DNA of 12,094 nt from the NCBI GenBank assembly GCA_947074135.1, contig CAMTOL010000045.1:1-12094 (forward strand), given 5' to 3'. A program made the translations under genes and the position numbers. Below, in pieces: positions 5,636-9,914 of the stretch. The stretch is from an uncultured Rikenellaceae bacterium (GTDB lineage Bacteria; Bacteroidota; Bacteroidia; Bacteroidales; Rikenellaceae). Under the pieces are notes generated by a model. That model was not told the origin of the DNA. It was given only the letters and a program-made list of their open reading frames with translations, and searched no databases. How positions within the stretch are numbered: position 1 is the stretch's first letter; every line of letters starts with the position of its first letter.

Positions 5636-8074
5636 ATGCAAAAGTTTATTAAATCCGTTCTTCCGCACATTGTTGCACTAGTAGTATTTGCTGTCGTTTC
5701 GGCTGCAATGTTTTATCCCGAACTGTCGGACAAAGCACTGCGCCAAGGCGACGTTATCAACCACGAGGGTATGGTGCAAGATATTGACCAATATATTGCC
5801 ACCTACGGCGAACACCCCAACTGGAGCGGACGTATGTTTGGCGGTATGCCCTCCTACACAATGTCTATGGACCACGGTTTTCATCTATTCTCGCTCGTCA
5901 ACCTACACCACGCCGAGAACTCAATTCTGATGCTTTTCCTAGCAATGGCAGGTTTTTACCTAATGCTACTGCTTATGGGCGTTAATGCTTGGGTGGCGAT
6001 TGTGGGTAGCCTCGCTTATGGACTCTCGACCTACTTCCCTATCATAATTTCGGCTGGGCATATTACTAAAATGTGGGCTTTACAATGGGTAGCACCACTC
6101 ATTGGTTCGATTTGGTACACCTATCGTGGACGTATGTGGACAGGTGGCGCACTATCGGCTCTCTTTACGGCTCTGCTCGTCGGCTCATCGCACCACCAAA
6201 TAACCTACTACTTCCTCTTTGTTATAGCGGCTCTTGTTATTATGCAGCTCGTGGTTTCGTTCAAAACAAAGCTACTTAGTCGATTTGCTAAAGCATCGGC
6301 AGTACTACTACTTGCAGCCTCACTAGGCGTTGGGAGCAACATTGTAGGACTATACTACATTGCCGACTACACCAAAGTTTCGACTCGTGGAGGAGCAAAT
6401 GAAACTGCGAATGAAACCAATGAAAAAGACCCAAACAAGACTTCAGGACTTGACAGAGATTACATTACAGCGTGGAGCTACGGCAAAAGCGAAACATTTA
6501 ATCTGTTTATTCCTAATTTTGCTGGTGGTGGTCGTAATTTTAAAGAGGGTGGCGATGTTGACCATACACTCTCGAAATATCAAGTACCTAAGGACTACTA
6601 TAAAAACTTACCCTCATATCACGGCTCACAACCATTTACCGAAGGACCAGTTTACATTGGTGCTGTTATAATCTTCCTAGCTCTCTTTGCGCTGTTCCTA
6701 CTGCCAGGCGAGTACAAATGGTGGATTATTGCCCCTACCCTACTAGCTCTATTGTTAGCTTGGGGACATAACTTAGGGTGGTTCACAAACCTATTTATCG
6801 ACTACTTTCCGCTTTACAACAAATTTAGAGTGCCATCGATGATACTCGTTGTTGTCGAGTGGTCAATTCCGCTACTTGCGTCACTTGGATTGTGCAAACT
6901 CTACAAAATGACTAGCGGACTGCCTATTACATACACACCACCCGTTAAAACCGAAAATGCTCTTTTCATCTCAACTGCAATTGCTGGAGGTTTTGCGCTG
7001 ATTTCAGCTCTAATTCTCCCTGCATTAATGAGTTTCACAGGAGCTAACGATGGGGCTATGGGACTGCCTAACGATATACTTGTGGCGATGGAGAGCGAAC
7101 GTGCAGCACTGCTTAGAGCAGACTCACTTCGTACACTTTTATTGATATTGGCAACTGCATTAGTGTTGTGGCTCTATATAAAAGGTGCAATCAAAAAAAT
7201 GGCAATTATGGTGGCTTGTGTTGCGGCACTTGTCATCTTCGATCTCTTTGGCGTTGACCGCAGGTATGTTTCGAGTGATGATTTTGTGTCAAAACGTGAA
7301 GCAAAAACAGTTGTTGCAACTGATGCCGACAAAACTATACTTCAAGATAAGAGCGACTTTAGAGTTGCCGACTTCTCGACTGGCAATCCATTCTCATCGT
7401 CAAGAGCCTCATACTTCCACCGCTCAATAGGCGGCTATCACGCTGCCAAAATGGGTCGCTATCAGGAACTTATTGATGCTCACCTCTCGAAAATGAACCA
7501 CAAAGTCTATGATATGCTAAATACAAAGTATTTCATAACCAGCGAAGGAGTTGAACAAAACCCAAGCGCAATTGGTAGCGCAACAGTCATTGATAGTGTA
7601 ATCTGGGTAAACAGCACCGCTCAAGAGCTGCAAATGCTAGGTTCGCAAGAGTTTAACCCTAGCTATGTGGCAATTGTAAACGAAAAATATCGTGACGCAC
7701 TAAAATCTGCCGACATTAGTGCAATTCCAGACTCTAACGACTATGTGCAACTCATAAGCTATGAACCAAATAGACTGAAATACGAGGTTCAAACCCAAAA
7801 TAATCGCCTAATCCTCTTTAGCGAAATTTTTCACAAAGATTGGGTAGTTTCGATTGACTCCGAGTTAGCTACACCAATCGAGGTGGATTATGTGCTACGT
7901 GGAGTAGTAGTACCTAGTGGAGTTCACACCGTAGAGTGGGTTTTTGTGCAACCTAATAGCAAAGTTATGATGAGTATTGCAGCCGTTTCGACTAGTGCAA
8001 TTATTTTGTGGTTAATTGCTATATTTGCACTCTGGATTCATACCCTCATAATATCAAAAACAAAAGATGAATAG
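5636..8074 (+). CDS. YfhO-family polytopic membrane protein
   Basis: Large integral membrane protein (812 residues) of the YfhO family, with the GT-C glycosyltransferase-like layout. A first helix at about residues 9-27 is followed by an extracytoplasmic loop with RQGDVINHEGM and the conserved stretch WSGRMFGGMPSYTM near 63-76. Many further helices run to about residue 540, then a large soluble domain and a final helix near 775-800. The soluble domain contains YDMLNTKYFI (about 625-634), a motif I associate with this family. B. subtilis YfhO is linked to glycosylation of lipoteichoic acid; the substrate in Bacteroidota is not known, so a role in moving sugars from a polyprenyl carrier is inference. 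The frame is intact throughout. The 3' end overlaps the first ftsX codons by eight bases. The stop is TAG. Confidence 0.88.
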   Translation: MQKFIKSVLPHIVALVVFAVVSAAMFYPELSDKALRQGDVINHEGMVQDIDQYIATYGEHPNWSGRMFGGMPSYTMSMDHGFHLFSLVNLHHAENSILMLFLAMAGFYLMLLLMGVNAWVAIVGSLAYGLSTYFPIIISAGHITKMWALQWVAPLIGSIWYTYRGRMWTGGALSALFTALLVGSSHHQITYYFLFVIAALVIMQLVVSFKTKLLSRFAKASAVLLLAASLGVGSNIVGLYYIADYTKVSTRGGANETANETNEKDPNKTSGLDRDYITAWSYGKSETFNLFIPNFAGGGRNFKEGGDVDHTLSKYQVPKDYYKNLPSYHGSQPFTEGPVYIGAVIIFLALFALFLLPGEYKWWIIAPTLLALLLAWGHNLGWFTNLFIDYFPLYNKFRVPSMILVVVEWSIPLLASLGLCKLYKMTSGLPITYTPPVKTENALFISTAIAGGFALISALILPALMSFTGANDGAMGLPNDILVAMESERAALLRADSLRTLLLILATALVLWLYIKGAIKKMAIMVACVAALVIFDLFGVDRRYVSSDDFVSKREAKTVVATDADKTILQDKSDFRVADFSTGNPFSSSRASYFHRSIGGYHAAKMGRYQELIDAHLSKMNHKVYDMLNTKYFITSEGVEQNPSAIGSATVIDSVIWVNSTAQELQMLGSQEFNPSYVAIVNEKYRDALKSADISAIPDSNDYVQLISYEPNRLKYEVQTQNNRLILFSEIFHKDWVVSIDSELATPIEVDYVLRGVVVPSGVHTVEWVFVQPNSKVMMSIAAVSTSAIILWLIAIFALWIHTLIISKTKDE

Positions 8075-8870
8075 ACGAGTTTACACAGGCAGAATAGCCT
8101 CAGTAATAGGAATATCGGTAGCACTCTATCTGGTAGGCGTAGATCTATATGTCGTTTTGGAAGCATAGAAAACACTGCAAGATCTCAGAGGCGAATTGAA
8201 AGTGTCAATAACAGTTAAAGATAGCGAAAGAATCGACCCTTTTGCAACAACAAAAGAGCTGCAAAAAATCGAGATAATACGTTCTGTTGAGTATATTGAC
8301 AGCACTAAAGCAGAACGCGACTTCACCTCCCACTTAGGAGTAAATTTTACTGAACTGGCAGGCGTTGGCGTACTGCCTAGCTCGTTCTTGGTTACAATAA
8401 AAACAGTTGGCGGAGCAAGAGAAGGCATTAACGAGTTTAAACAAACCGTAAAACAACTCGATTGGGTCGAAAGCGTTCAGAGCGAAGATGCGATAGTCGA
8501 AGAGATTGAACGGACAACCAAACTAATGGAGCAGTTTTCGATGTGGCTAGGTGGAGTTGTGGGAGTTGTGGCACTTATTATCTGCTTTGTGTTGATAAAG
8601 TTATCGATTGGAGCAACATTCAACTGTTATGACTACCAACTGCGTCCAATACTTAGCTCGAGGTGCTATCGTTGGGCGTGGGTAAGCGGAGTGGTAAGTG
8701 GAGGCGTTGCCACTGGGCTACTTTGGTTTACCATTAAAACCTCAGATATGGTACTGCCCCAATTGGAATTTTCGTACGACACTCTGCCGCTAATTTCAGC
8801 TGTGCTGATTGTTGGCTCAACAGTAATGACGCTACTCTCAACAGCACTTTCGATTGCAGTTCAAAAATAA
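8067..8870 (+). pseudogene. ftsX: ftsX interrupted by an in-frame TAG (cell-division permease-like protein)
   Basis: FtsX, with the ATPase FtsE, transmits signals across the inner membrane to peptidoglycan hydrolases. An ATG at 8067, overlapping the YfhO gene end, opens 33 codons (MNRRVYTG...VVLEA) holding the first membrane helix, which contains an unusual Asp26. TAG at 8166-8168 stops it. The same frame then reads on to TAA at 8870. The rest is clearly FtsX: an extracytoplasmic domain with VEYIDSTKAERDF and LPSSFLVTIKT, then three helices. Without the TAG the product would be 267 residues. The longest open part starts at a TTG (8196) and gives 224 residues lacking the first helix. The loop after the second helix, normally RLxIYxKRFxIxTMxLVGAT, reads IKLSIGATFNCYDYQLR here and barely matches. 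It could be a decaying gene, a sequencing error, or a split or suppressed gene. Confidence 0.75.
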
Positions 8871-8898: not shown

Positions 8899-9114
8899 AT
8901 GACTTTCAGTAAGAAAAACTACATTTTGATGGGTGTCGGAGTGGCACTTATCGTTCTAGGGTTTATACTGCTCTCTGGTGGCGGTGCCGAAAATCCTGAA
9001 ACCGAATTTTCATACGAAATATACTCATTTCGTCGTCTTTGGGTTGCCCCAATTGTGCTTATCGCTGGTTTTGCAGTCGAAGCTATTGCCATCTTTAAAC
9101 GCTTTAAAAACTAA
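8899..9114 (+). CDS. DUF3098 family membrane protein
   Basis: A 71-residue protein with two membrane helices (about residues 9-26 and 46-64) that I recognise as DUF3098, a small uncharacterised family of Bacteroidota. Between the helices it has SGGGAENPETEF followed by YSFRRLWVAPIVL, the family hallmark. I chose the ATG at 8899 (MTFSKKNYILMG). An upstream in-frame TTG at 8854 would add residues encoded by the end of ftsX and does not fit the family. The gene lies 28 bases after ftsX and eight bases before uppP. Its usual place between ftsX and uppP suggests an envelope role, but the function is unknown. Confidence 0.9.
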   Translation: MTFSKKNYILMGVGVALIVLGFILLSGGGAENPETEFSYEIYSFRRLWVAPIVLIAGFAVEAIAIFKRFKN

Positions 9115-9122
9115 AATAAACT

Positions 9123-9914
9123 ATGGAGGTTTTTGAAGCGATACTACTCGGTCTTGTTCAAGGATTGACCGAGTTTCTACCCGTTAGTAGTAGTGGACAC
9201 CTCGTAATTGCAAACGACGTGTTGGGCGTAAACCTCAACCAAGAGGCTATGCTGACATTCGGCGTTGTAGTTCACGCTGCAACCGTACTTGCCACAATTA
9301 CAGTATTCTGGAAGGTACTTTTAGATCTTTTTACAGGACTTTTTAAATTTCAAATTAATCCTCAAACAAAGTATGTGCTGTTGATTGTCATTTCGATGAT
9401 TCCAGTTATGGTCGTTGGATTGTTTTTCAAAGGTTGGGTCGAGAATTTCTTTGGAGAAGGGTTGAAGTTAGTTGGGTCGATGCTGCTCATTACTGCTGCG
9501 TTGCTTACACTCTCATACTTTCTAGCACCAAAAAATCCAAAACCAATAAACTGTTCACGAGCTTTCACCATAGGTTTGGCTCAAGCTGTAGCGGTACTTC
9601 CGGGAATTTCACGCTCTGGGGCAACGATTTCAACAGGATTATTGCTAGGTGTGGACAAAAAAGAGATTGCGCAGTTTTCGTTCTTGATGGTGCTGGTGCC
9701 AATTTTAGGCGAAGCTTTTTTGGAACTGGTAAAGGGGGAGTTTTCGCCTGCGTCTTCGGGTATTTCGACGGTTGCATTGATTAGCGGCTTCTTGGCGGCG
9801 TATATTAGCGGATTATTTGCCTGTAAAGTTATGATACGCATTGTAAGTCGTGGCAAACTCTACTGGTTTGCAATCTACTGCGCCGTTATTGGTATAATTG
9901 CTCTAATTTGGTAA
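9123..9914 (+). CDS. uppP: Undecaprenyl-diphosphatase UppP (BacA)
   Basis: Inner-membrane enzyme that hydrolyses undecaprenyl diphosphate to undecaprenyl phosphate, recycling the lipid carrier for peptidoglycan and other surface glycans. Overexpression of the family gives bacitracin resistance. The 263-residue length is typical. Signature motifs are intact: QGLTEFLPVSSSGHL at residues 13-27 (Glu17, Ser22-24, His26), a conserved His at 51, and LPGISRSGATIS at 159-170 with Arg164. Several hydrophobic helices span the rest. The start is ATG with eight bases after the DUF3098 stop, and truB follows seven bases later, so it sits inside the same transcription unit. No missing catalytic residue is seen. 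Confidence 0.97.
   Translation: MEVFEAILLGLVQGLTEFLPVSSSGHLVIANDVLGVNLNQEAMLTFGVVVHAATVLATITVFWKVLLDLFTGLFKFQINPQTKYVLLIVISMIPVMVVGLFFKGWVENFFGEGLKLVGSMLLITAALLTLSYFLAPKNPKPINCSRAFTIGLAQAVAVLPGISRSGATISTGLLLGVDKKEIAQFSFLMVLVPILGEAFLELVKGEFSPASSGISTVALISGFLAAYISGLFACKVMIRIVSRGKLYWFAIYCAVIGIIALIW

Follow-up and report, generated by a model that had tools for sequence, protein, structure and literature searches.

An in-frame amber codon after the first membrane helix interrupts ftsX in an uncultured Rikenellaceae bacterium of a genus with strongly diverged FtsX

The locus analyzed here raises the question of what a TAG codon is doing inside the reading frame of ftsX. The window, i.e., the whole stretch of DNA analyzed, is an entire contig of 12,094 bases within a 264-contig draft of an uncultured Rikenellaceae bacterium (genome G000, 84% complete). 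On its forward (+) strand, the ftsX frame opens with an ATG at 8067, runs through 33 sense codons to a TAG at 8166-8168, and continues over 233 further sense codons to a TAA at 8868-8870. The N-terminal fragment (8067..8165, +) holds the start and one hydrophobic stretch, the first membrane helix, and aligns with residues 1-33 of P0002, the nearest relative of the encoded protein; the remaining frame (8169..8870, +) encodes the periplasmic domain and three membrane helices. An earlier note on this DNA had stated that the TAG (8166..8168, +) splits ftsX in frame just after its first membrane helix, and our reading of the frame from 8067 to 8870 confirmed this, as did a read-through search, which reported one TAG inside the FtsX match. 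No frameshift was found in the 801-base frame, and the remaining 11 genes of the window are all open. The open frame downstream of the TAG is more than a product of chance, since, given the base composition, a run of 233 codons without a stop would arise with a probability of ~3e-7, and 18 and 13 stops occur in the two other frames of this stretch.

The gene is embedded in a conserved neighborhood. Its start overlaps the TAG stop codon (8072-8074) of the gene for a YfhO-like membrane protein (5636..8074, +), and it is followed by intact genes for a DUF3098 membrane protein (8899..9114, +; PF11297, 89.1 bits) and the undecaprenyl-diphosphate phosphatase UppP (9123..9914, +; PF02673, 241 bits), the latter serving as our control for evolutionary rate. 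The order YfhO-FtsX-DUF3098-UppP-TruB-QueA is identical in the congener G002, whose assembly is a single contig of 3,149,227 bases. Two annotations in this neighborhood deserve mention: the YfhO-like protein (5636-8074) stays under every Pfam and NCBIfam cut-off despite homologues named as YfhO family, and UppP (9123-9914) passes the Pfam BacA model (241 bits) and stays below all NCBIfam equivalog cut-offs listed (185 versus 217.5 bits for TIGR00753).

The interrupted gene is ftsX, and the earlier assignment to this family holds by its Pfam domain, its fold, and the order of the genes. Positions 18-96 of the Pfam domain FtsX_ECD (PF18075), the FtsX extracellular domain, match the downstream piece at its residues 26-103 (8244..8477, +), with 26.1 bits for the piece itself and 27.9 bits in a search of the genome (cut-off 23.5). 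The NCBIfam FtsX equivalog was not reached (TIGR00439, 44.4 bits versus a cut-off of 255), nor were the cut-offs of two other NCBIfam FtsX models; the piece is divergent (window FtsX has a mean identity of about 20% to other Bacteroidales FtsX) and lacks the N-terminus. The structure predicted for the 233-residue piece, of moderate confidence (pLDDT 75.3, pTM 0.50), places a periplasmic domain ahead of three further membrane helices. Its best Foldseek match was FtsX 8ymc (E 8.9e-10); of the 20 matches with E <=0.001, the 11 at ranks 1-11 were full FtsX chains of FtsEX entries, and the others were FtsX domains or MacB. A continuous frame with an N-terminal helix 1, as in other FtsX, was not found, owing to the TAG at 8166-8168.

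The stop is private to this genome among the matches listed. With P0002 as the query, 218 of 250 family genomes gave a match, and G000 alone had an internal stop among the matches listed; the TAG, whose conservation in relatives the earlier note took as an argument against simple decay, is thus common to no relative among them. P0002 is an intact protein of 269 aa that aligns across both window pieces at 40% identity (45% in the 33 residues that precede the TAG and 39% in the 227 columns that follow). A protein search for close relatives of the window FtsX returned only its own cluster and P0002, and a search for near strains with the YfhO protein gave no match above 66% identity. In an alignment of 63 FtsX rows (L045 yielded no row, and 9 duplicates were removed), the stop column contains Leu (18), Tyr (9), Arg (9), Asn (6), Lys (4), Val (4), Met (3), Gln (3), Phe (2), Ser (2), Ile (1), and His (1), in addition to the window's stop; P0002 has Tyr. 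With Lys and Gln so infrequent relative to Leu, the earlier expectation that this residue is often Lys or Gln had to be abandoned. The locus thus presents features of a pseudogene, namely, intact homologues, a private stop (among the matches listed), and a frame that is otherwise preserved.

FtsX differs markedly even between members of the genus. Within the genus (G000, G001, G002, and G003; 6 pairs), FtsX identity is 19-29% and UppP identity 59-78%, whereas in other genera (4 genomes, 6 pairs) the corresponding values are 48-63% and 54-59%. Judged by these identities, the evolution of FtsX in this genus is strongly accelerated relative to that of UppP. YfhO and DUF3098 are somewhat diverged in the genus as well, though far less than FtsX, and its members stand on long branches of unsure placement in a tree of 35 FtsX.

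The divergence includes the site at which FtsX docks to the ATPase FtsE. Most Bacteroidales FtsX contain a TM-K-LVGA motif in the loop that joins helix 2 to helix 3, which corresponds to 8622..8648 (+) in the window. In the 63-row alignment, LVGA is kept in all 61 other rows and is absent from the window and P0002, in both of which the docking loop is five residues shorter. The TM2-TM3 loop of the window FtsX thus lacks the LVGA docking helix of a working FtsEX. In G001 and in the assembled part of G003, the length of the loop is kept and the LVGA motif is lost, and in G002 the motif is retained. A study on pneumococcal FtsX reports that the segment ISREIQIMRLVGA, equivalent to the docking motif, binds FtsE, and that the substitutions I216K and V220K in ISREIQIMRLVGA are lethal through loss of FtsE contact (PMC7468199).

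The partner itself was found in only part of the genus. None of 21 genomes reached the cut-off of the NCBIfam FtsE model, and we identified FtsE first by its clade and later with profile A2. In the ATPase tree (L104, L126, and L139 gave no row), a supported FtsE clade of 14 includes the copy of G002 and held no rows from G000, G001, or G003. A search with a profile of six FtsE, in which every candidate was scored, gave 367 bits for G002; the best matches in G000, G001, and G003 had 153.6, 150.8, and 159.1 bits, respectively, which is the level of other ABC proteins, and FtsE of other genomes reached at least 289.8 bits, with the exception of one 224.8-bit fragment (contig edge or similar). The completeness of G000, G001, and G003 is 84, 68, and 65%, respectively, and the missing FtsE may sit in the unassembled part. 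A search across the family, in which 23 candidates were scored for most genomes, detected FtsE in 109 of 120 genomes and in all 72 of those that were at least 90% complete. Outside the genus, FtsE was missing in 8 of 45 less complete genomes (G016, G032, G036, G074, G081, G097, G123, and G130). At this rate, the chance that incompleteness alone accounts for three absences out of three is ~0.006, a figure that is too low, the true one being higher, because G000, G001, and G003 are less complete than most of the 45. In four of the eight genomes (G036, G081, G097, and G123), the FtsX motif is kept in every case, which fits an FtsE that is merely unassembled there; three others (G016, G032, and G130) had no FtsX match to P0002 among the matches listed. 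In G000 and G001, no FtsE adjoins the counterparts of the genes on either side of FtsE in G002, which is weak evidence, since FtsE flanks differ between genera and the gene order around FtsE is not conserved in the family.

The survey also returned several separate observations. The four genomes G098, G102, G105, and G108 of genus g15 have one TAA or TAG inside each FtsE match, which may mean no more than an alignment that runs beyond the start codon or may be a genuine feature of g15, and an ABC ATPase match in G008 (C404:2636-3283) contains one internal TAA. In two genomes of genus g10, G012 and G031 (96% and 87% complete), FtsE was found and FtsX gave no match to the P0002 query, from which it may be too diverged.

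The reading frame also contains information on the age of the stop. Of random substitutions in the ftsX frame, 3.6-4.6% (one per 22-28) would create a stop, and a single stop allows for no more than about 0.13-0.17 neutral (unconstrained) substitutions per site; one stop and no frameshift thus speak for a short neutral time. The codon usage of the 233 downstream codons falls within the spread of values for the 11 intact genes, and the mean identity to 61 other FtsX is 20.9% for the window and 20.4% for P0002. Pointing the other way, the 33-residue N-terminal piece of the window is less like other FtsX than that of P0002 is (28.4% versus 32.7%), and its synonymous codon score of -0.112, calculated from 33 codons only, is below those of all 11 intact genes. 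From the single stop, the absence of frameshifts, the normal codon usage, and the P0002-like distance to other FtsX, we conclude that constraint acted on FtsX during most of its history after it separated from P0002 and that the stop came late.

Taken together, we consider it probable that the TAG represents a recent nonsense allele, which inactivates ftsX in a lineage in which FtsEX was already failing. Among the options that the earlier note had offered, a recent nonsense mutation is the best. The sequence of events may have begun with the strong acceleration of FtsX in the genus, followed by the loss of the docking motif from FtsX of the window genome, P0002, G001, and G003 and by the disappearance of a detectable FtsE from G000, G001, and G003 (all incomplete); the window frame would then have gained its one stop. 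Without FtsE, ATP could not drive FtsX, so the loss of FtsX would cost little. Translation would end after 33 residues and give a short one-helix peptide, and the remainder, if begun at a TTG or GTG, would lack helix 1, its periplasmic domain being misplaced. The fast evolution of FtsX, the lost motif, and the failure to find FtsE would therefore make a loss of FtsX function tolerable and render suppression or split translation less likely. What speaks against decay is that P0002 and G001 retained an open FtsX frame once uncoupling had occurred, which argues that FtsX kept some use, contrary to simple dispensability.

The alternative that survives best is that the TAG is an artefact or a minority allele, i.e., a wrong assembled base or joined strains, FtsX being intact and fast evolving. 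We consider this unlikely, though to be taken seriously. The genome is a draft of 264 contigs, the FtsX protein is represented by a single contig in the protein database, where its entry P0001 is a one-member cluster, and a lone stop in a clean frame with normal codon usage is just what one wrong base would produce. However, with 11 other open genes in the window and no internal stop in any of 24 ABC-ATPase domains of G000, the consensus is not generally poor, and the stop falls in the gene that, by comparison, changes fastest in the window.

Translation of ftsX as two separate pieces, with the second re-initiated and either both or the second alone active, appears very improbable. The only start-like codons soon 3' of the TAG are a TTG (8196) and a GTG (8202) (8196..8204, +), from which an open frame of 222-224 codons begins; they lie 30-36 bases from the stop, and the automatic gene call P0001, the window's own FtsX in the database, opens at GTG 8202. 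Nevertheless, there is no nearby ATG, the first in-frame one lying >300 bases beyond these codons, and no split relative was seen among the matches listed. The second piece would moreover have its periplasmic domain at the N-terminus, with no preceding helix. The normal topology of FtsX places a helix before the periplasmic domain, and its absence would be a defect.

Very improbable is also that a suppressor tRNA or weak termination allows the TAG to be read through to a full-length FtsX. The coding appearance of the frame 3' of the TAG and the predicted FtsX fold of its product would agree with it, and the 19 tRNA genes identified in G000 compare with 39 in the genome of Mucinivorans hirudinis (PMC4319616), so a suppressor could sit in unassembled DNA. 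The earlier note had raised the possibility of an amber-suppressor tRNA, and none of these 19 genes (an incomplete set) has a CTA anticodon. General suppression would be costly, as release factor RF1 is intact (486 bits versus a cut-off of 423) and TAG ends many genes; 19 of 47 mechanical open reading frames of at least 180 aa in the G000 stretches read, some of which may be non-genes, end in TAG, including groEL and YfhO. RNA structure that would favor readthrough was sought in three stretches 3' of the stop and was unremarkable (z-scores -1.20, -0.20, and 0.02), and the stop is absent from relatives among the matches listed. Readthrough, suppression, and separate translation are thus without positive support here. 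A reassigned amber code is ruled out by the TAG-ending genes, the intact RF1, and the lack of CTA among the 19 tRNAs of the incomplete set, in agreement with the standard code proposed earlier. A second ftsX, for which the earlier note had suggested a search, was likewise not found in the genome, in that a PF18075 search at E up to 10 found 8244..8477 as the sole match above the cut-off in G000, the two other matches (13.0 and 11.2 bits) being below it and in unrelated-looking frames. Among the other genes inspected, the RF2 frame of G000 (C19, L101, 1435-2514) lacks an ATG near its beginning. A programmed frameshift is known for RF2 genes and would fit such a frame.

Beyond the preferred reading of a recent nonsense allele, we tentatively propose that part of this Mucinivorans-like genus keeps FtsX working without FtsE and that the window species is now losing or shortening even that. 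The frames of P0002, G001, and the assembled part of G003 are open at 19-40% identity, which supports an FtsE-free FtsX because, at this distance, stops would abound in a frame free of constraint. If so, FtsX would regulate cell wall hydrolysis independently of ATP and might act as a passive scaffold; no report of FtsX kept without FtsE in Bacteroidota was found in the limited collection of literature searched. A stop codon in a single draft assembly is ordinary, and its setting is more useful. The related genomes seem to show successive steps, from a fast-evolving FtsX with FtsE, through the loss of motif and FtsE, to a broken FtsX, and, if confirmed by complete genomes, they would offer a natural test of any role of FtsX without its ATPase.

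In comparison with known systems, the window FtsX shares the PF18075 domain with FtsX of the FtsEX type VII ABC complexes of E. coli, P. aeruginosa, M. tuberculosis, and S. pneumoniae, and its model resembles the FtsX structures 8ymc, 8i6o, 8w6i, and 8idb in Foldseek. Unlike these, it is interrupted after helix 1 and lacks the LVGA docking motif and five loop residues. Loss of ftsEX is described in a study on "Candidatus Liberibacter asiaticus" and "Candidatus Liberibacter solanacearum" (PMC3885570), which are host associated, as is this lineage, and have lost the division complex, as it probably has; there, both genes are reported absent, whereas in the window a broken ftsX frame remains and ftsE was not found. 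The closest comparison is the FtsX of G002, attributed to Mucinivorans hirudinis M3T, a leech symbiont of the Rikenellaceae (PMC4319616). It belongs to the same genus, has the same gene order, and is also unusually diverged, with 29% identity to the window FtsX; in contrast to the latter, its frame is intact, its docking motif is kept (IRTMQLVGARR), and its FtsE is present.
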